Shown here one piece after another: positions 1 to 9,118 of a DNA stretch of 64,000 nt. The notes below the pieces were generated by a model, which ran no database searches, was not told where the DNA came from, and saw only the letters and a list, made by a program, of their open reading frames with translations. Position 1 is the stretch's first letter, and the number at the start of each line of letters is the position of its first letter. The position numbers and the translations under genes are program-made. Source of the stretch: Sulfurimonas gotlandica GD1 (GTDB taxonomy: Bacteria > Campylobacterota > Campylobacteria > Campylobacterales > Sulfurimonadaceae); the NCBI RefSeq assembly GCF_000242915.1, contig NZ_AFRZ01000001.1, positions 1,116,001 to 1,180,000 of the forward strand, read 5' to 3'.

Positions 1-455
1 TCTTTATTGCTTAGATGCTGCGAGCTGTTTTCACTTTTTAGTATATGGTTTTGCGTGTCAAACTCTAAATCCTTAGCTATCTGAACTAAAAAGCTGAGCC
101 CAAAATGCCTTTTGATATTTTCTATACGCTGAGTCAACTCTTCTAAATCAAAAGGCTTTTTTATAAAGTCATTTGCACCCGATTCAAAGGCTTTTTTTAG
201 ATGCTGTGTATCGTGAAAAGCAGTTATAAAAATAGTAGGAGTCTCATCATTAAAACTTCTTAGCTCTTTGAGTAGAGAGATGCCATCACCATCTGGGACA
301 TTGATGTCAAATATATACAAGTCGTAGTTTATCTCCTCACTAAGCACAAGTGCTTTTTTCATACTATATGTATGAGTCACAGTGTATTCTTCTTGTAAAA
401 AATCGACCAAGATATCTGCTAAGACCGTATCATCTTCTAGGAGTAAAATTTTCAT
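1..455 (-). CDS. OmpR-family response regulator, partial (C-terminus beyond the window)
   Basis: The reading frame starts at ATG 453-455 on the minus strand and runs off the left edge, giving about 151 residues. The receiver domain is clear: an acidic pair D8-D9, the phospho-acceptor D50 in YIFDINVP, and the KKPF lysine near residue 105. The last visible residues begin what looks like a winged-helix output domain, so this is probably a DNA-binding OmpR/PhoB-type regulator. It is divergent from the copper efflux genes and separated from them by a promoter with direct repeats at one-helical-turn spacing, the classic OmpR-family arrangement. A CopR/CusR-like role is therefore inferred. The partner kinase is not visible and may lie further left. 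Confidence 0.85.
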   Translation of the reverse strand, partial: MKILLLEDDTVLADILVDFLQEEYTVTHTYSMKKALVLSEEINYDLYIFDINVPDGDGISLLKELRSFNDETPTIFITAFHDTQHLKKAFESGANDFIKKPFDLEELTQRIENIKRHFGLSFLVQIAKDLEFDTQNHILKSENSSQHLSNK

Positions 456-492
456 GAAGTATTATATCACACCAAATGAAGCTATTAAAAAA

Positions 493-525
493 CCTCACAT
501 TCTACTCACACTAGCTAACTATACT
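493..525 (+). promoter_or_regulatory. Direct-repeat operator and -10, copy a
   Basis: CCTCACA at 493-499 and ACTCACA at 504-510 are 11 bp apart start to start. A -10-like TATACT at 520-525 follows after 9 bp. The same geometry recurs at 753 and 3361. It lies in the gap between the response regulator and the SHOCT gene. Binding by the neighbouring OmpR-type regulator is inferred. Confidence 0.7.
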
Positions 526-552
526 TACACTATATAAAGTAAGGAGTCTGTC

Positions 553-744
553 ATGCATAGTTTTGGAATAGTCGGAATGGGATTGATTTGGCTTGTTTTG
601 CTACTTGTAATCGTAGCATTGATATATGTGATGGACTCAGATTCAGATCAGAGCTCTGCTAAAGACATACTTGATAAAAGGTTTGCAAATGGCGAGATCG
701 ACGAGGAAGAGTATAAAATTATTAAAGATAGTCTCAGACTATAA
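553..744 (+). CDS. Small SHOCT-domain membrane protein
   Basis: A 63-residue protein. Residues 8-27 form one hydrophobic membrane segment, then a short acidic linker, then a C-terminal module (about residues 36-63) with the pattern AKDILDKRFANGEI-EEEY, which is the SHOCT short-domain signature. A ribosome binding site (aaggag) lies just upstream of the ATG. SHOCT domains are usually small oligomerisation modules at the end of membrane proteins. Its own copy of the direct-repeat promoter places it in the copper regulon by inference. Its biochemical role is unknown. Confidence 0.75.
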   Translation: MHSFGIVGMGLIWLVLLLVIVALIYVMDSDSDQSSAKDILDKRFANGEIDEEEYKIIKDSLRL

Positions 745-752
745 TCTTTAAT

Positions 753-785
753 CCTCACAATCTCCTCACAATATCTAAGTAAACT
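753..785 (+). promoter_or_regulatory. Direct-repeat operator and -10, copy b (upstream of copA)
   Basis: CCTCACA at 753-759 and CCTCACA at 764-770, again 11 bp apart, followed after 9 bp by TAAACT at 780-785. It sits directly upstream of the P-type ATPase gene. The geometry is identical to copies a and c. Confidence 0.75.
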
Positions 786-831
786 TAAACCATAGAAGAA
801 CTAGATGCCCCAAGCTAAATGGAGGTGCGTC

Positions 832-2964
832 ATGAGTGTTAAAGAAACAAATATCTATACCTGTCCTATGCATCTTGAAATAAAACAAGATCATCCAGGG
901 TCTTGCCCTAAATGTGGTATGGCACTTGAACCAATCAAAGTCCAAGCCGATGAAGAGAACGACGAACTAACATATATGAGCAGACGATTTTGGATAAGTC
1001 TGTTCATATCCCTCCCTCTCTTTATTGTAGCTATGACAAATGATTTAGCACCGGAGCTTTTACCCGAGAGTCTTTCTATGCTAAGTGTTCAATGGTTTCT
1101 TTTTATACTCGCAACTCCAGTAGTGCTTTGGGGCGGATGGCCATTTTTTGTTCGTGGATACCTTTCAGTAAAAACATGGAACTTAAATATGTTCACACTT
1201 ATAGCCATAGGTGTAGGTTCTTCTTATATATACAGTGTTTTTGCACTTTTAGTGCCCCACACTTTTCCTCCGCTTATGCAGACAGAAGATGGTTTAGTCC
1301 ATGTCTACTTTGAAGCATCTGCAGTTATTACAACCTTGGTACTACTAGGTCAGATGCTAGAACTAAAAGCCAGAAGCAAAACAACTTCTGCAATCAAAAC
1401 ACTTTTAAACCTTTCTCCTGCACAAGCGCATAAAATTGATAACAATGGTAATGAAGAAATTGTATCCCTTGAGAGTGTACTTGTAGATGATATTTTAAGA
1501 ATAAAACCTGGCGAGAAGATTCCGGTCGATGGAGTGGTCATTGGCGGACACAGTAATGTCGATGAGTCGATGATTACAGGAGAAGCTATACCTGTCCCAA
1601 AATCAGTCGATGATTTTCTAATCGGAGCAACACTAAACAAAAATGGAACACTACTCATGCGTGCAGTTCGTGTTGGAAGTGACACGATGCTCTCAGAGAT
1701 CATAGATATGGTAGCGCAGGCTCAACGCTCACGCGCTCCTATCCAACACATAGCGGACAAAGTCGCAGGTTACTTTGTACCAGCCGTAATATTCTCCGCA
1801 ATTTTCACATTCTTTGGCTGGTATATGTGGGGTCCTGAACCACGTCTCGCTTATGCGGTCGTATCTGCAGTAGCAGTTTTAATTATTGCCTGTCCTTGTG
1901 CCTTAGGATTAGCAACTCCTATTTCTATTATGGTAGGGACTGGACGAGCAGCTCTAATGGGTATTTTGATAAAAGACGCACAAAGTTTAGAGACTATGGA
2001 AAAAGTAACAATATTAGTTGTTGATAAAACAGGAACACTCACAGAGGGAAAACCAAAAGTTACTAACTTTATTGTTTCAGATGGTTTTGATGAGATAGAT
2101 GTCCTAAGATATGCCGCAAGTTTAGAAAGTGTCAGCGAGCATCCGTTAGCACAAGCGATAGTAAAGCATGCAAAAGATGCCGGTCTTGTCTTATCACAGG
2201 TTGATAAATTTAAAGCCATTACGGCAAGAGGCATTATCGGCGAGATAGATGATAAAAAAATAGTCCTAGGCTCACAAGAATTCATTAACTCTCTTTGCAT
2301 CTTTGAAGCAGATGCACAGAAGAAAATAAAAGCCCTGCGTAAAGAAGATAAAGGTCTTATATTTATGAGTATAGATTTTCACCTATGTGCTATATTTGCT
2401 ATTGAAGATGCCATAAAACCAACATCTAAAGAGGCAATTCACGCACTTAAAAAAGAAGGTATTAAAGTTGTACTTATTAGCGGAGACAACAAGATAACAG
2501 CAAATAAAGTGGCAGATACACTAGGTATTGACAAAGTTTACTCCAGCGTATTACCAAACGTAAAAGCTGAGATAATCAAAGAACTTCAAGATGCCGGTGA
2601 GATTGTAGCCATGGCTGGTGATGGTATAAATGACGCTCCTGCACTAATGCAGGCTAATGTCGGCATCGCTATGGGAACAGGAACTGATGTTGCCATCAAC
2701 AGTGCAGGAATCACCCTTATAAAAGGTGATTTACTTGGCATCGTTAAGGTTAGAAAACTAAGTTATGAGACTATGAAAAACATCAGGCAAAATCTCTTTT
2801 TTGCGTTTATATATAACAGTGCAGGTATCCCAATAGCAGCTGGACTTTTTTACCCACTCTTTGGTGTTTTACTCTCTCCTGTAATTGCCGCAGCAGCTAT
2901 GAGTTTTAGCTCTGTATCTGTCATAACAAACGCATTGCAATTAAGAAATATTAAGATTGGTTAA
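832..2964 (+). CDS. copA: Copper-translocating P1B-type ATPase (CopA-like)
   Basis: A 710-residue heavy-metal P-type ATPase that would pump monovalent copper (or silver) out of the cytoplasm. In place of an N-terminal HMA domain it has a short CPMH...CPKCGM metal-binding module (residues 11-30). The actuator TGE is at 249-251, the transmembrane CPC metal site at 354-356, the phosphorylated DKTGT starts at D398, the nucleotide-binding HP is at 437-438, and GDGIND is near 615. The ATG at 832 is preferred over one at 805 because a strong GGAGG lies just before 832. It follows the SHOCT gene and has its own direct-repeat promoter. CPC with this N-terminal module favours Cu(I) over zinc or cadmium; substrate is inferred. 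Confidence 0.93.
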   Translation: MSVKETNIYTCPMHLEIKQDHPGSCPKCGMALEPIKVQADEENDELTYMSRRFWISLFISLPLFIVAMTNDLAPELLPESLSMLSVQWFLFILATPVVLWGGWPFFVRGYLSVKTWNLNMFTLIAIGVGSSYIYSVFALLVPHTFPPLMQTEDGLVHVYFEASAVITTLVLLGQMLELKARSKTTSAIKTLLNLSPAQAHKIDNNGNEEIVSLESVLVDDILRIKPGEKIPVDGVVIGGHSNVDESMITGEAIPVPKSVDDFLIGATLNKNGTLLMRAVRVGSDTMLSEIIDMVAQAQRSRAPIQHIADKVAGYFVPAVIFSAIFTFFGWYMWGPEPRLAYAVVSAVAVLIIACPCALGLATPISIMVGTGRAALMGILIKDAQSLETMEKVTILVVDKTGTLTEGKPKVTNFIVSDGFDEIDVLRYAASLESVSEHPLAQAIVKHAKDAGLVLSQVDKFKAITARGIIGEIDDKKIVLGSQEFINSLCIFEADAQKKIKALRKEDKGLIFMSIDFHLCAIFAIEDAIKPTSKEAIHALKKEGIKVVLISGDNKITANKVADTLGIDKVYSSVLPNVKAEIIKELQDAGEIVAMAGDGINDAPALMQANVGIAMGTGTDVAINSAGITLIKGDLLGIVKVRKLSYETMKNIRQNLFFAFIYNSAGIPIAAGLFYPLFGVLLSPVIAAAAMSFSSVSVITNALQLRNIKIG

Positions 2965-3016
2965 AAGACATTTATGGAACTTTTAATGCTAGTATTGACT
3001 CAGTAAAGGATTTTAA

Positions 3017-3325
3017 ATGAGCAAATTGATTAACCTCCACCAAAAAAATGACCCTTTAAAAGATTGGGAAGAAAAGAATATAAGAAATAAAAAAAAATCC
3101 AATATCGCCTTTACACAAAATAAACAAGAAGCTCACGCAATATATATACCCAAAGTTTATGACTCTCCTCAAGAAATAGCAAGAATAGCTGAAATACTCG
3201 CAACCAAAGAAGAGATACAACGAAGCTTATCGTCTAAAATTATTTATACAAACACACAAGAGAGTGCAGAGATAAATCAAAGACGAAAAGAACTTCTAAA
3301 CATTAAAAAAATACTACAAATGTAA
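3017..3325 (+). CDS. Hypothetical protein in the copper locus
   Basis: A 102-residue, lysine-rich, predicted cytoplasmic protein with no signal peptide or membrane segment and no cysteines, so it is unlikely to bind copper through thiols. The C-terminal half is helical and charged. It starts 52 bp after copA and ends before a weak hairpin, so it may be cotranscribed with copA. I recognise no family. Its position between copA and the efflux operon is the only clue to a role. Confidence 0.6.
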   Translation: MSKLINLHQKNDPLKDWEEKNIRNKKKSNIAFTQNKQEAHAIYIPKVYDSPQEIARIAEILATKEEIQRSLSSKIIYTNTQESAEINQRRKELLNIKKILQM

Positions 3326-3347
3326 AGAGCTAGGTTACAACTCTTTA
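3323..3347 (+). terminator. Weak hairpin after the copA unit
   Basis: TAAAGAG (3323-3329, including the stop codon) pairs with CTCTTTA (3341-3347) around an 11-nt loop. There is no strong U tract, so termination is uncertain. The next promoter starts only 14 bp downstream, which fits a transcription-unit boundary. Confidence 0.4.
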
Positions 3348-3360
3348 TATAACTGACATC

Positions 3361-3393
3361 CCTCACAAACCCCTCACAAACAATCAATATAAT
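3361..3393 (+). promoter_or_regulatory. Direct-repeat operator and -10, copy c (cus operon)
   Basis: CCTCACA at 3361-3367 and 3372-3378, 11 bp apart, followed after 9 bp by a perfect TATAAT at 3388-3393. It precedes the YtkA-like/cusCBA operon. It has the best -10 of the three copies. Confidence 0.8.
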
Positions 3394-3421: not shown

Positions 3422-3802
3422 ATGAAAACGATAGCAAAAATATTTCTAATAGCAATACTAGGGGTTAGTCTACTACAAGCAGCAGCATTTGAGAAAGTTG
3501 CAAAGTCAAGAGAAACAAACGTTGTAATGAGTTCAGAAAAACCTCTAACTACTGGGAATAATACAATAAATATGGTAGTATCTAACGAGAAGTATGCAGA
3601 CGCAGTAGTAAGTATTAAAATATTCATGCCAGCAATGCCTGGGATGCCGTACATGGAAACTACAGCAGATGCTAAAAGTCTTGGCGGCGGAAAGTATGAA
3701 GTCAACGTAAACCTATCAATGGGTGGTACTTGGCAAGTTCATATCTTTATCACACCAAAAACTGGTAAAAAAGTCAGAGCTAAAGCTTCACTAAATATCT
3801 AA
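3422..3802 (+). CDS. Periplasmic YtkA/FixH-like protein with methionine-rich motif
   Basis: A 126-residue protein with a signal peptide (about residues 1-21, ending LLQAAA) and a small beta-rich domain. The motif MPAMPGMPYME supplies four methionines in a short stretch, typical of YtkA-like/FixH-like domains near copper systems, and could bind Cu(I) or Ag(I). It is the first gene of the operon with cusCBA, 9 bp before the outer membrane component, with a good ribosome binding site (aaaggataa). It may serve as a periplasmic metal carrier, analogous to CusF but in an unrelated fold. The metal-carrier role is inferred. Confidence 0.75.
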   Translation: MKTIAKIFLIAILGVSLLQAAAFEKVAKSRETNVVMSSEKPLTTGNNTINMVVSNEKYADAVVSIKIFMPAMPGMPYMETTADAKSLGGGKYEVNVNLSMGGTWQVHIFITPKTGKKVRAKASLNI

Positions 3803-3811
3803 GGATAAGTT

Positions 3812-5005
3812 ATGAGAGTATACATCGTACTACTTTTCCCACTTCTGCTAAGTGCTGCAACTCTATCTTCACTGATAGAGAATGCCAAAGCTACTCACAC
3901 CTCTCTGGATGCAATAGAAAAACGTCTAAGTGCAGTTAGTGATGAGTACGATGTAACTAGAAATTTTGCTGACCCCGAGCTTCTGCTAAGTGTTAGCGAT
4001 ATTCAACTAAAAGATCCAACAAACCGCTCAATCGAGCCTATGCAATACTCTGCTGTAAACTTAAAACAAAAGATTCCATATTTTGGAAAAAGAGATGCAG
4101 CTTCTAAAAAAGTAGATGCAAAAAAAGCAACAATTAGCTTTAGCCTTGCTCAGGCAAAAGTAAAACTTACAGAGTCTATAAAGCTAACGGCATATAGCAT
4201 CTGGCAAGTAGAAGAGCAGCTAAAAATCACAAATGAGTACATAGAACTTACACGTCAAAACATTGAACTTTACACTGCGTACAGTAGCAGTGATGCAAAA
4301 TCTCACATGGGAATCATGTCAGCTGAGCTATCACTATCTCAACTAAAAATAAAACATAGTAAACTCCAAAGTTTATTAATGGGTCTATATAAAAATGTGA
4401 GTTACCTAAGTGCTATGGATGTAAAATCCATCGAGCTTTCTATGGAGGTTTCACAGCCAAGAGAACTCTCTTACTACATGGATGCGACAGATGAGAGCAG
4501 TGCTTACAAAGTAAAAGAGGCCATAGTAAAAGAAGCAGAAGCTGACATAAAAGTAAAAGAGCTGGCTAAAAATATTGATCCGTTTGTTCAAGTTGGTTAC
4601 TTTTACAGAGAATCATTCGAAGACTACATGAATGTGAATGTAGGTTTTGCACTTCCTATCTATGGAACTCAAGACTCAAAAAAGGAAGCTTCAAGAAAAG
4701 TATCTCTAGCTACAAAAAGCGAAGTGCTTGACTTTAAAAACTCACTTGACTCTAAAGTGGTAGAGTATTATGCAAGACTTCAAGACGCATACAGAGTTTA
4801 CAACATCATAGAAAAAGAGAGCTTACCACAGATAAGACACATGTTTGATCTTACAAACACATCTATCAAAAGTGGTTCTGAACTCTTCATTTACATAGAA
4901 CTTTTAGGCAAAAAACTCAAACTAGATGAACAAAGCATCGAAGCTGTTAGCGCGTTCTACAAAGCTAATGCTTCTCTAGATGCACTCATAGGGGTAGAAA
5001 AATGA
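3812..5005 (+). CDS. TolC-family outer membrane efflux protein (CusC-like)
   Basis: A 397-residue protein with a signal peptide (residues 1-15) and long helical stretches of the outer membrane efflux protein family, the channel component of tripartite pumps. It is somewhat shorter than E. coli CusC (about 460 residues). It overlaps the adaptor gene by 4 bp (ATGA), so the two are probably translationally coupled. Role inferred from family and from its place between a methionine-rich periplasmic protein and an HME-type RND pump. Confidence 0.85.
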   Translation: MRVYIVLLFPLLLSAATLSSLIENAKATHTSLDAIEKRLSAVSDEYDVTRNFADPELLLSVSDIQLKDPTNRSIEPMQYSAVNLKQKIPYFGKRDAASKKVDAKKATISFSLAQAKVKLTESIKLTAYSIWQVEEQLKITNEYIELTRQNIELYTAYSSSDAKSHMGIMSAELSLSQLKIKHSKLQSLLMGLYKNVSYLSAMDVKSIELSMEVSQPRELSYYMDATDESSAYKVKEAIVKEAEADIKVKELAKNIDPFVQVGYFYRESFEDYMNVNVGFALPIYGTQDSKKEASRKVSLATKSEVLDFKNSLDSKVVEYYARLQDAYRVYNIIEKESLPQIRHMFDLTNTSIKSGSELFIYIELLGKKLKLDEQSIEAVSAFYKANASLDALIGVEK

Positions 5006-5997
5006 GACTTTTACTAATATTATTTATGTTATTATCATTTGCAGATGCAAAAGAAAAAACCGTACAACAGGTCTTTAATGTACAGACTACAAAAGTAAAG
5101 CTAATCTCAGATGCCAAGAGCATAAAAAGCTTTGGATTTGTAAAAGTGGATGAGTCTAGAGTCTATGATGTAAGTCCGAGATTTAGCGGTTTTGTTGAAG
5201 TTTTATATGCTGATAAAACATATAAAAAAGTAAGTAAAGGGGAGGAGCTTGTAAAAGTTTACTCTCCTGAAGTCTTAAAAGCTAAAGACGATTACCTAAA
5301 CACTATGAACTACACAAAAGATAGACCAAATAAAACGATGCTTGAGAGTGCTAGAACAAAACTTTCTCTTTTAAACATTCCAGATGCCGAGATAAATCAA
5401 ATCATAAAAAGCAAAAAAACAACTTCTTTTACAACTATAAACTCTCCATCAGATGGTTATATATTTAAAAAAGCACTAAACAACAACTCTGCTTTTAACG
5501 CTAAAAATGTACTTTTTCAGGTAGTAAATCTTGACAAAGTATGGGTTGAGATAAAAATTCACCAAAACCAATTTGAAGCACTGCAAAATATAAAAGATTA
5601 TACACTCTCGACTCCATCACTAAAACAGACTTTTAAAGCTACAAGAGAAAATCTATACCCTGAACTTGATCCAAAAGAGGAGAGCTTTACTCTTAGACTC
5701 TCTCTTGATAACAAAAACAATCTTCTAAAACCTGGAATGTATATAACAGCAATTATGAGCACAGATGCTACAAGTTATCTAACTCTTCCTGCAACTGCTG
5801 TTATGAGAAAAAATGGTAAGTTTTATGTATTTGTTGTTGGAGAATACGAGGGAGAATACGCACCTCTAGAGGTAGATGTAGAAGTTTTAAATACTGATAC
5901 ATACATAATAAAAAGTGAGTTAAACGAAGGCGATGAAGTAGTGAATAATGCTTTGTTTATGATGGACAGTGATGCCCAAGTAAATGGGTTATATTAA
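5002..5997 (+). CDS. RND efflux periplasmic adaptor (CusB-like)
   Basis: A 331-residue membrane fusion protein with an N-terminal signal (residues 1-16). It has the barrel-sandwich layout: a beta segment containing VYDVSPRFSGFVE, a short helical hairpin (about residues 90-130), and the return lipoyl half with PSDGYIF, followed by a beta-barrel region. It links inner-membrane pump and outer-membrane channel. It is shorter than E. coli CusB and lacks the N-terminal metal-binding module. It overlaps the channel gene by 4 bp and precedes the pump gene by 10 bp. Confidence 0.88.
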   Translation: MRLLLILFMLLSFADAKEKTVQQVFNVQTTKVKLISDAKSIKSFGFVKVDESRVYDVSPRFSGFVEVLYADKTYKKVSKGEELVKVYSPEVLKAKDDYLNTMNYTKDRPNKTMLESARTKLSLLNIPDAEINQIIKSKKTTSFTTINSPSDGYIFKKALNNNSAFNAKNVLFQVVNLDKVWVEIKIHQNQFEALQNIKDYTLSTPSLKQTFKATRENLYPELDPKEESFTLRLSLDNKNNLLKPGMYITAIMSTDATSYLTLPATAVMRKNGKFYVFVVGEYEGEYAPLEVDVEVLNTDTYIIKSELNEGDEVVNNALFMMDSDAQVNGLY

Positions 5998-6007
5998 AGG
6001 ATAAGTT

Positions 6008-9000
6008 ATGATTGAAAGTATAATATCCTTTAGTATTAGAAATAAATTTCTTATCCTAATGGCTACGCTGTTTTTAACTTTTGCCTCTTACTGGGCTCTT
6101 AAAAATACGCCTCTGGATGCCATACCTGACCTCTCTCCACCTCAGGTAATCGTTAAACTAAATTGGGCGGGACAATCTCCTGAGATCATAGAAGATCAAG
6201 GGACTTATCCGCTTGTTTCTCAGTTTCTCGCTATTGCAAATATAGAGACGGTTAGAGGTTTTTCAACTTATGAAAATGCTCTTATTTACATCATATTTAA
6301 AGAAGGAACTGATCTTTACTGGGCTAGGACTCGTGTACTTGAGCAGTTGGCTTCTGTACAATCCTCTCTTCCTGAATCCATGGAAGTAAACCTAGGTCCA
6401 GATGCCAGCGGTGTGGGCTGGGTGTATGAGTATGCTCTTACTTCAAAGACTAAAAACCTCAGCGAGCTTAGAACTCTGCAAGACTACTACTACAAGTATG
6501 CACTTTTAGGTGTTGACGGTGTTAGTGAAGTTGCATCAATAGGTGGATTTGTTCCGACTTACCAAGTGAGTGTGAGTAACGATACACTGACACGTTATAA
6601 CCTCAGCATCCAAGATGTCGCAAAAACTCTCAAAGAAAACAACAACGACACGGGCGGTCGTATAGTTATTCAAAACGGTTTTGAGTGGATGATTCAAGCC
6701 AAGGGCTATCTCAAAGACTTAGATGATATCCGCTCTTTAGTTGTGACTTCAAAAGCTAACATTCCAGTAACCATAGGAGACATAGGAAGAGTAGAGTTAG
6801 TTCCTGGATCTCGTCGCGGTATGGCAGACCTTAACGGTGAGGGAGAAGTTGTCGGAGGAATCGTAATGGTTCGTTACGGCGAAGATGTTTATGCGACCAT
6901 CAAACGTATAGAGAAAAAGATGAGTGAGTTACAAGTCGATGGTGTTGAAGTCATCGAAACATATAACCGCTCAGAGCTCATCGAGAAAGCGGTAGATACA
7001 CTAAAGTTTACACTAATTGAAGAGATTGTAATTGTCATCATTATTATTACTCTATTTTTAATGCATCTACGCTCTTCTATCATAGTTCTGGTTGCTCTAC
7101 CTCTGACTATCGGTGCGACTTTTTTACTTATGAAAGTCTTTGGGATTGACTCAAATATAATGAGTCTTGGTGGTATCGCCATTGCCATCGGTGCGATGGT
7201 AGATGCAACCATAGTAATGATAGAAAATGCTCACAAGACCATTATAAAAGAAGAGGAAAAAAAAGGTGAATCTCTCACAAAACAAGAGAGATATGATGCC
7301 ATTGCCAGCTCGTCAAAAGTTGTAGGTCGTCCAATATTTTTTGCCCTTGCTTTGGTTGTGGTTTCATTCCTGCCTATCTTTGCACTTTCTGGTCAGGAGG
7401 GTCTACTTTTTACTCCTCTAGCTTTTACAAAAACCTTTGCTATGACTGCGGGAGCAATCATCTCTATAACTCTAGTTCCAGTCCTGATGCTCTTTTTCGT
7501 AAAGGGAAAGATACTTAGTGAGAACAAAAATCCACTAAACCGTTTCTTTGTCTGGCTCTATCACCCAATCATCATTTACGGACTGAAACTAAAGTACATC
7601 GTGATCTTAGCTGCTGTTGTAGCTCTTGGTTTTATGTATCCGCTATACAATGGTCTAAAGTGGGAGTTTATGCCTCCACTAAATGAACAGTCTCTTATGT
7701 ACATGCCTGTTACTCCTTATGGGATCAGTGTCGATCAGAGTAAAATTTTGACTCAAAAGACAGATGCCATCATCAAAAGTTTTCCAGAAGTTGATACAGT
7801 CTTTGGTAAGGGCGGGCGCGCAAACTCTGCTACTGACCCTGCCCCTCTCGGGATGATAGAGACTATTATCACTTTCAAACCACAGATTGAGTGGAGAGAA
7901 GGCATGACGCATGAAAAGCTAATGGCAAAACTAGAAGAGGCTCTTCAAGTTCCAGGGCTCGTTAACTCTTGGACTTATCCTATTCGCGGTCGTATAGATA
8001 TGCTTTTAAGCGGCATCCGTACTCCTCTTGGAATCAAACTATATGGTAAAGATGCAGCAGGCTTGCAAAAGTATGCACTAGAAATTGAGAGCAAACTTAG
8101 AACTTATGACAAAACACAATCAGTATTTGCCGATCAGGCAAGTGCCGGATATTACCTCGACATAGAGATAGATGAAAAAGAGTTGGCAAGATTCAAGATA
8201 AGCAAAAACTACCTGCTGGATTATGTGGCATCCGGGGTTGGCGGGATGAAAGTCTCTACTATGTACAAAGGCATAGAGCGTTATCCGATTGCACTTCGTT
8301 TTGAAGAAAATGAGAGACGTAGCATAGAAAGCATCCGGGAGTTACAGGTAAAAACTTCGCTTGGGTTTGTACCGCTTGGAAACTTTGCTAAAGTTGCTTA
8401 CCGTGAGAGTGCATCTGTTATAAAAAGTGAGATGGCATCTCCTGTTACTTTCATCTACATCACTCCACAGGTAGGTGTTAGTGCGACTGAGTATAAAAAA
8501 GAAGCTAAAGTTCTTTTAGATGACATAAAACTTCCTGCTGGCTACTACATAGACTGGGCTGGTCAAAGTGAGTACCTAGATTCAGCGATGCAAAAAATAG
8601 TCTGGATAGTTCCAGCCGTGCTTATAGTTATCCTGATACTAATCTACTTTGCGCTTAAAGAACTAGTACCGACTTTCATAGTCTTTTTCAGTCTACCGTT
8701 TGCACTTTTGGGCGGTCTTATCTACATAGACATGCTTAACTTTAACATGAGCATAGCAGTTATAGTCGGCTTTTTAGCACTTCTTGGGATTGCAGCTGAA
8801 ACTGCGATTGTAATGATAGTTTATCTACAAGAAGCGGTAAATGATGCAAAAGAGAAATTTGCCACAAACTTTGGTCACTTAGAGTTAAGAGATGCTATAT
8901 ATGAAGGAGCAGTTAAAAGAGTAAGACCAAAACTGATGACTGTTTTCTCAACTCTTGCAGGTTTACTTCCTATTATGTACATTAACGGAGTTGGTAGCGA

Positions 9001-9118
9001 AGTAATGCAAAGAATCGCCGCACCAATGATAGGCGGACTAATAAGTTCAGCAGTTCTAAGCCTAGTAATCATCCCTATACTTTTTGAGATTTATGCTAAG
9101 TGGGGGATGAGGAAGTAA
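6008..9118 (+). CDS. cusA: Heavy-metal efflux RND pump (CusA-like)
   Basis: A 1036-residue RND permease, the usual length for the heavy-metal (HME) subfamily. It has an N-terminal membrane helix, two large periplasmic loops and two clusters of membrane helices. The HME signature GAMVDATIVMIENAHK is present near residue 400, in the proton-relay helix. It is the last gene of the ytkA-like/cusC/cusB/cusA operon and ends 16 bp before a convergent gene. Copper or silver is the likely substrate because of the CopA and methionine-rich neighbours; cobalt-zinc-cadmium pumps of the same subfamily cannot be fully excluded. Confidence 0.9.
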   Translation: MIESIISFSIRNKFLILMATLFLTFASYWALKNTPLDAIPDLSPPQVIVKLNWAGQSPEIIEDQGTYPLVSQFLAIANIETVRGFSTYENALIYIIFKEGTDLYWARTRVLEQLASVQSSLPESMEVNLGPDASGVGWVYEYALTSKTKNLSELRTLQDYYYKYALLGVDGVSEVASIGGFVPTYQVSVSNDTLTRYNLSIQDVAKTLKENNNDTGGRIVIQNGFEWMIQAKGYLKDLDDIRSLVVTSKANIPVTIGDIGRVELVPGSRRGMADLNGEGEVVGGIVMVRYGEDVYATIKRIEKKMSELQVDGVEVIETYNRSELIEKAVDTLKFTLIEEIVIVIIIITLFLMHLRSSIIVLVALPLTIGATFLLMKVFGIDSNIMSLGGIAIAIGAMVDATIVMIENAHKTIIKEEEKKGESLTKQERYDAIASSSKVVGRPIFFALALVVVSFLPIFALSGQEGLLFTPLAFTKTFAMTAGAIISITLVPVLMLFFVKGKILSENKNPLNRFFVWLYHPIIIYGLKLKYIVILAAVVALGFMYPLYNGLKWEFMPPLNEQSLMYMPVTPYGISVDQSKILTQKTDAIIKSFPEVDTVFGKGGRANSATDPAPLGMIETIITFKPQIEWREGMTHEKLMAKLEEALQVPGLVNSWTYPIRGRIDMLLSGIRTPLGIKLYGKDAAGLQKYALEIESKLRTYDKTQSVFADQASAGYYLDIEIDEKELARFKISKNYLLDYVASGVGGMKVSTMYKGIERYPIALRFEENERRSIESIRELQVKTSLGFVPLGNFAKVAYRESASVIKSEMASPVTFIYITPQVGVSATEYKKEAKVLLDDIKLPAGYYIDWAGQSEYLDSAMQKIVWIVPAVLIVILILIYFALKELVPTFIVFFSLPFALLGGLIYIDMLNFNMSIAVIVGFLALLGIAAETAIVMIVYLQEAVNDAKEKFATNFGHLELRDAIYEGAVKRVRPKLMTVFSTLAGLLPIMYINGVGSEVMQRIAAPMIGGLISSAVLSLVIIPILFEIYAKWGMRK

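Follow-up and report, generated by a model that had tools for sequence, protein, structure and literature searches.

Here we describe three promoters of Sulfurimonas gotlandica GD1 that share a tandem repeat of the hexamer CTCACA, and we consider it highly likely, from sequence comparison, that the three repeats are the operators of a divergently encoded two-component response regulator (RR) which activates the copper-export genes beside it. The window, that is, the whole stretch of 64,000 nucleotides that was analysed, had led in an earlier note to the proposal of a copper regulon, and this regulon is very probably real: across relatives the sites and the RR orthologue occur together, and in other species, too, the sites are followed by copper genes. 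Binding by the RR, its phosphorylation, activation over repression and copper as the signal are all what we infer from this pattern.

Three promoters and one regulator

All three operators lie on the forward strand and are recovered by pattern matching in the window, the genome and the genus. Operator 1 (CCTCACA-TTCT-ACTCACA, 493..510) is followed after a fixed 9-bp spacer by TATACT (520..525), the -10 element of the SHOCT promoter; operator 2 (CCTCACA-ATCT-CCTCACA, 753..770) stands 9 bp before TAAACT (780..785), the -10 of copA; and operator 3 (CCTCACA-AACC-CCTCACA, 3361..3378) stands 9 bp before TATAAT (3388..3393), the -10 of ytkA-cusCBA, in a geometry that is conserved in ytkA promoters. 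SHOCT, copA and ytkA thus each have an operator and a -10 of their own. The coordinates and spacings first given for the three sites proved exact, and the core pattern CTCACA-N5-CTCACA-N9-TANNNT matches without mismatch at 494-525, 754-785 and 3362-3393. Their description as an 11-bp direct repeat needs correcting: what recurs strictly, at a period of 11 bp, is a 6-bp word (7 bp if the C or A before it is counted), although relatives often repeat the whole 11-mer CTCACAAACYC. In the usual -10 numbering the half-sites occupy -38..-33 and -27..-22, the position of the -35 element, so that head-to-tail half-sites one helical turn apart lie in the -35 region at a fixed distance from the -10, an arrangement to be expected of a class II activator. 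The same geometry, with its period of 11 and spacer of 9 written as CACA-N7-CACA-N9-TANNNT, recurs in 22 of the 25 ytkA promoters of orthologous loci against a shuffled mean of 0.005, and alternative periods or spacers in those 25 promoters give 0-5 matches.

When up to 2 mismatches were allowed over the 15 fixed bases, only the three operators matched in the window (0.22 expected), and three or more such matches were reached in 0 of 100 shuffles. Many unrelated matches elsewhere in the genome had been named beforehand as grounds for giving up the motif; in the genome that was searched, a single contig of 2,952,682 bp, the exact core CTCACA-N5-CTCACA occurs three times in the 2.95 Mb, at the three operators and nowhere else, and the proposal thus withstood this check. 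Loosening the pattern brought no excess over the reversed-pattern control, with 11 matches against 13 for the core at 1 mismatch on both strands of the genome and 76 against 107 for the full pattern at 3 mismatches. Because looser patterns occur only at control frequency, the regulon that the CTCACA repeat defines seems to be this one locus.

Could the three sites be chance words, or copies of a dispersed repeat, and hence look-alikes without function? The genome does hold short repeats, among them the 17-bp ACTCACTACTNACTCAC, which has three exact copies, at G000:C1 30907 (+), 451062 (+) and 2256651 (-), with 0 control matches; one copy resembles an operator, and the repeat is a separate element. 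The flanks of the three operators differ, however, near-zero matches are expected by chance, and both the spacing and the place before the start codon are conserved across genera, all of which leaves this explanation with hardly any credit. The operator-like copy of the repeat is the match at G000:30908, a candidate fourth site with one mismatch and the right -10 spacing, which we rejected as an operator, it being kept in the closest relative only and absent from genome G030. The remaining one-mismatch matches in the genome, which lie mostly within open reading frames and occur at control frequency, were likewise set aside.

The regulator on the other side of operator 1 (1..455, reverse strand; 215 aa) belongs to the OmpR/PhoB family, as the earlier note had it, with receiver (REC, PF00072, 90.1 bits) and Trans_reg_C (PF00486, 63.4 bits) domains that both exceed their cutoffs. 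Its 3' end and the gene for a 371-aa histidine kinase lie just beyond the window (G000:C1 1114700-1116455). In the kinase HATPase_c scores above the gathering cutoff and HisKA slightly below it, and an HELNTP box is present; an adjoining kinase gene is found in 37 of 37 RR loci of at least 5 kb. Its probable periplasmic segment has three possible metal ligands that are strongly conserved among 45 orthologues (H49 in 44, M63 in 45 and H111 in 45) and that might bind copper. Against the heavy-metal regulator model TIGR01387 the RR reaches 93.7 bits where the cutoff is 279.2, a score that places it outside the CusR/CopR/SilR subfamily; since it falls so far below this cutoff, the family name alone is no pointer to metals. 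A probable -10 for the RR gene (TATAAT, 461..466, reverse strand) stands 5 bp before its ATG, and the pattern TAYAAT-N4..7-ATG is found in 27 of 32 RR orthologues (L080-L119) against 9 of 167 background reading frames, which suggests that the RR mRNA is leaderless or nearly so and that this is conserved among orthologues. Operator 1 starts 27 bp upstream of the RR -10, and at locus L088 the operator abuts it, suggesting a regulatory region common to the RR and the divergent SHOCT promoter; autoregulation of the RR is likely.

All genes downstream are read on the forward strand. The first (553..744) encodes a 63-aa membrane peptide with a SHOCT domain that scores 26.3 bits, just below the Pfam cutoff of 27, and has orthologues in copper loci. 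It is followed by copA (832..2964), encoding a Cu(I)-exporting P-type ATPase with an N-terminal HMBD domain (TIGR01511, 581.7 bits, cutoff 397); its frame is open from 805, and since GGAGGT precedes 832, the start is probably there rather than at 805. Between copA and ytkA lies a 102-aa reading frame without a family (3017..3325), whose position between the two genes is kept in three close relatives at 53-61% identity. The third site had been said to precede cusCBA; it does head that operon, the first gene of which (3422..3802) encodes a YtkA-like periplasmic protein. Profile searches then identify a cusC-like outer membrane efflux protein (OEP, 3812..5005), a cusB-like adaptor (5002..5997) and a cusA-like RND transporter (6008..9118; TIGR00914, 982 bits, cutoff 701).

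Sites, targets and regulators across relatives

Among 100 genomes of the genus, the exact pattern occurs at 22 sites in 13 genomes, and the reversed-pattern control at none. An RR orthologue, at a cutoff of E <= 1e-70, is present in 40 of the 100, and the exact site is found in 13 of these 40 against 0 of the 60 genomes without one (Fisher p = 1.7e-6, a value that ignores kinship and, the genomes being related, overstates their independence). The exact site is absent from the other 27 of the 40, for which half-site drift accounts only in part.

The sites stand about 50-65 bp before the start codon, upstream of copper genes, and dozens of relatives keep them before genes like these. Behind those of the genus lie ytkA-cusC(BA), cusA, copA, the SHOCT gene, a DUF302 gene and a multicopper oxidase (Pfam Cu-oxidase); one further site precedes a small exported-looking protein, and one in genome G079, which forms a divergent pair with a ytkA site, faces a gene without an assigned name. 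The addition of the SHOCT peptide to the regulon holds up, as its gene has a site of its own in relatives L080, L082 and L112, and one site in G388 heads a DUF302-SHOCT-copA unit; we found no paper in the accessible literature that links SHOCT with copper. At L162, L177 and L183 the DUF302 gene comes first in the operator-driven unit, hinting at a role for DUF302 in copper.

Two further kinds of gene were seen behind the pattern. At L187, in genome G465, whose RR is 81% identical, an exact operator with a -10 (1501-1532) precedes a gene for a 229-aa membrane-like protein, DUF4395 by appearance, the start codon of which lies 57 bp past the start of the site; this is possibly a further copper gene. 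At L188 and L189 (G358 and G382, of another genus) the operator pattern stands before a gene of 188-190 aa with a TAT-like leader, DUF2202 by appearance, and the best RR match in these two genomes is only 45% identical; these two sites were set aside.

One might suppose that it is a different OmpR-family regulator that occupies the sites and that the neighbouring RR is a bystander. A search of the genome at E <= 1e-20 gives 12 OmpR-type matches, and in G287 and G396, outside the family, there are CTCACA-like repeats for which no close RR orthologue was found. Matches outside the family are, however, near background, at 3 against one reversed-control match in the same set (the exact matches at L179, L180 and L190, and a match at L185 inside a reading frame, were judged to be background or the sites of other regulators). 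The co-occurrence of site and RR orthologue in the genus, a site between the RR orthologue and ytkA in the sister genus g4, and half-sites whose drift follows the recognition helix of the neighbouring RR all speak against the supposition, which we regard as improbable.

A somewhat less improbable alternative, still an unlikely one, is that the RR does bind the sites but represses from them, or else responds to some signal other than copper, such as silver, zinc, redox or envelope stress, and that the copper genes form part of a broader response. No copper gene is found nearby at 11 of the 37 RR loci of at least 5 kb, some contigs being short or truncated, and the DUF4395-lookalike gene of G465 could be read in the same way. 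Against it, the targets are repeatedly copper exporters and the multicopper oxidase, and the operator takes the place of the -35 element beside a good -10, a layout that activator-dependent promoters share. Activation of copper-export genes by the neighbouring RR is the reading we retain.

Half-site drift and comparison with known systems

With RR orthologues of 67-76% identity, CTCACA gives way to CACACA, ACCACA and AACACA as the half-site, and the geometry is unchanged. Concurrently the RR recognition helix, DAVRTLIKELRKHLG (residues 186-200), passes from KEL or KDL to KNL: CT precedes CACA in 38 of 42 half-sites of genomes with Glu or Asp at residue 194, and in 6 of 38 half-sites of those with Asn. 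A set of 24 distinct sites, drawn from the Glu/Asp class and from loci whose regulator was out of reach, gives the consensus CTCACAAACYCCTCACAAAC-N6-TATAAT. In an alignment to E. coli BasR/PmrA, E194 falls on Asn196, and in our own alignment of the PhoB helix we take its position to be that of Arg201. PmrA Asn196 reads bases in the crystal structure, and PhoB Arg201 bonds a guanine (PMC3973317, PMC4660055). In the regulator tree the shift at residue 194 comes down mostly to a single change at the level of a clade, with another that is ambiguous, and locus L092 is an exception, having E at 194, yet half-sites with CC or CA. It is suggestive that the half-site sequence tracks residue 194, if through few independent events.

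The pho box lies in the -35 region. The operator described here resembles both it and the PmrA box in having two 6-bp half-sites, head-to-tail with a 5-bp gap, and a winged-helix regulator of the OmpR/PhoB family; the box of PmrA (BasR) is CTTAAT-N5-CCTAAG, with 6-bp half-sites head-to-tail and 5 bp apart (PMC3973317, PMC4660055). It differs in the half-site itself, CTCACA, in the residue at the base-reading position (Glu194, where PmrA has Asn and PhoB Arg) and in its targets, which are copper-export genes. The operator and the regulon are new, and the type of mechanism is already known.

In E. coli copA is under CueR, unlike here, where copA belongs to the regulon. Like E. coli CusRS and Pseudomonas CopRS/CusRS, the present system is a two-component system with a small regulon beside copper-efflux or resistance genes; unlike the operators of CusR and CopR, which are palindromes with arms of the TGACA or GTAAT type (CusR sites: AAAATGACAAnnTTGTCATTTT; ATTCATnnATGTAAT; PMC11195947), those found here are direct repeats of another sequence. 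More distant regulators, at L122, L094 and L125, go with TTCACA-type half-sites at an unchanged period, and the ytkA promoter of the outgroup locus L122 reads TTCACA-N5-TTCACA. These half-sites would link the operator to the TTCAC repeat of Campylobacter jejuni DccR. The DccR operator, as reportedly described by MacKichan in 2004, is WTTCAC-N6-TTCACW, a direct repeat of period 11 that covers the -35 region. Unlike the copper genes here, the known targets of DccRS are periplasmic and membrane proteins whose expression falls in stationary phase (PMC9449129). Helicobacter pylori CrdRS, as cited in the same paper, is likewise a two-component copper-resistance system of the Campylobacterota, and no operator sequence for CrdRS was found in the accessible literature.

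A bolder reading, which we entertain without favouring it, is that the Sulfurimonadaceae may hold a copper two-component system that forms a lineage of its own, apart from CusRS/CopRS, and uses a direct-repeat operator. In this system the replacement of Glu or Asp by Asn at residue 194 would have accompanied the shift of the operator from CTCACA towards NACACA or ACCACA at unchanged spacing, leaving a natural record of regulon-wide co-evolution between regulator and operator.

Proposed mechanism and its meaning

We propose that the adjoining membrane kinase would sense a periplasmic metal, most likely Cu(I), and that the RR would take up phosphate at an aspartate, by its position D50, and dimerise. 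Two of its winged-helix domains would then bind head-to-tail to CTCACA half-sites one helical turn apart, where the RR would replace the -35 element and recruit sigma-70 polymerase in the manner of class II activation, the output being the SHOCT peptide, CopA and the YtkA-CusCBA efflux operon.

A copper regulon is hereby defined from sequence in a genus of sulfur oxidisers that is of global importance and the metal regulation of which is scarcely described in the accessible literature. The operator predicts targets at almost zero background, so that a part in copper stress can now be tested for SHOCT, DUF302 and YtkA-like proteins, and perhaps for DUF4395-like ones. Its half-sites, which drift while the geometry stays fixed, form a natural collection in which changes of specificity among OmpR/PhoB-family regulators can be measured.
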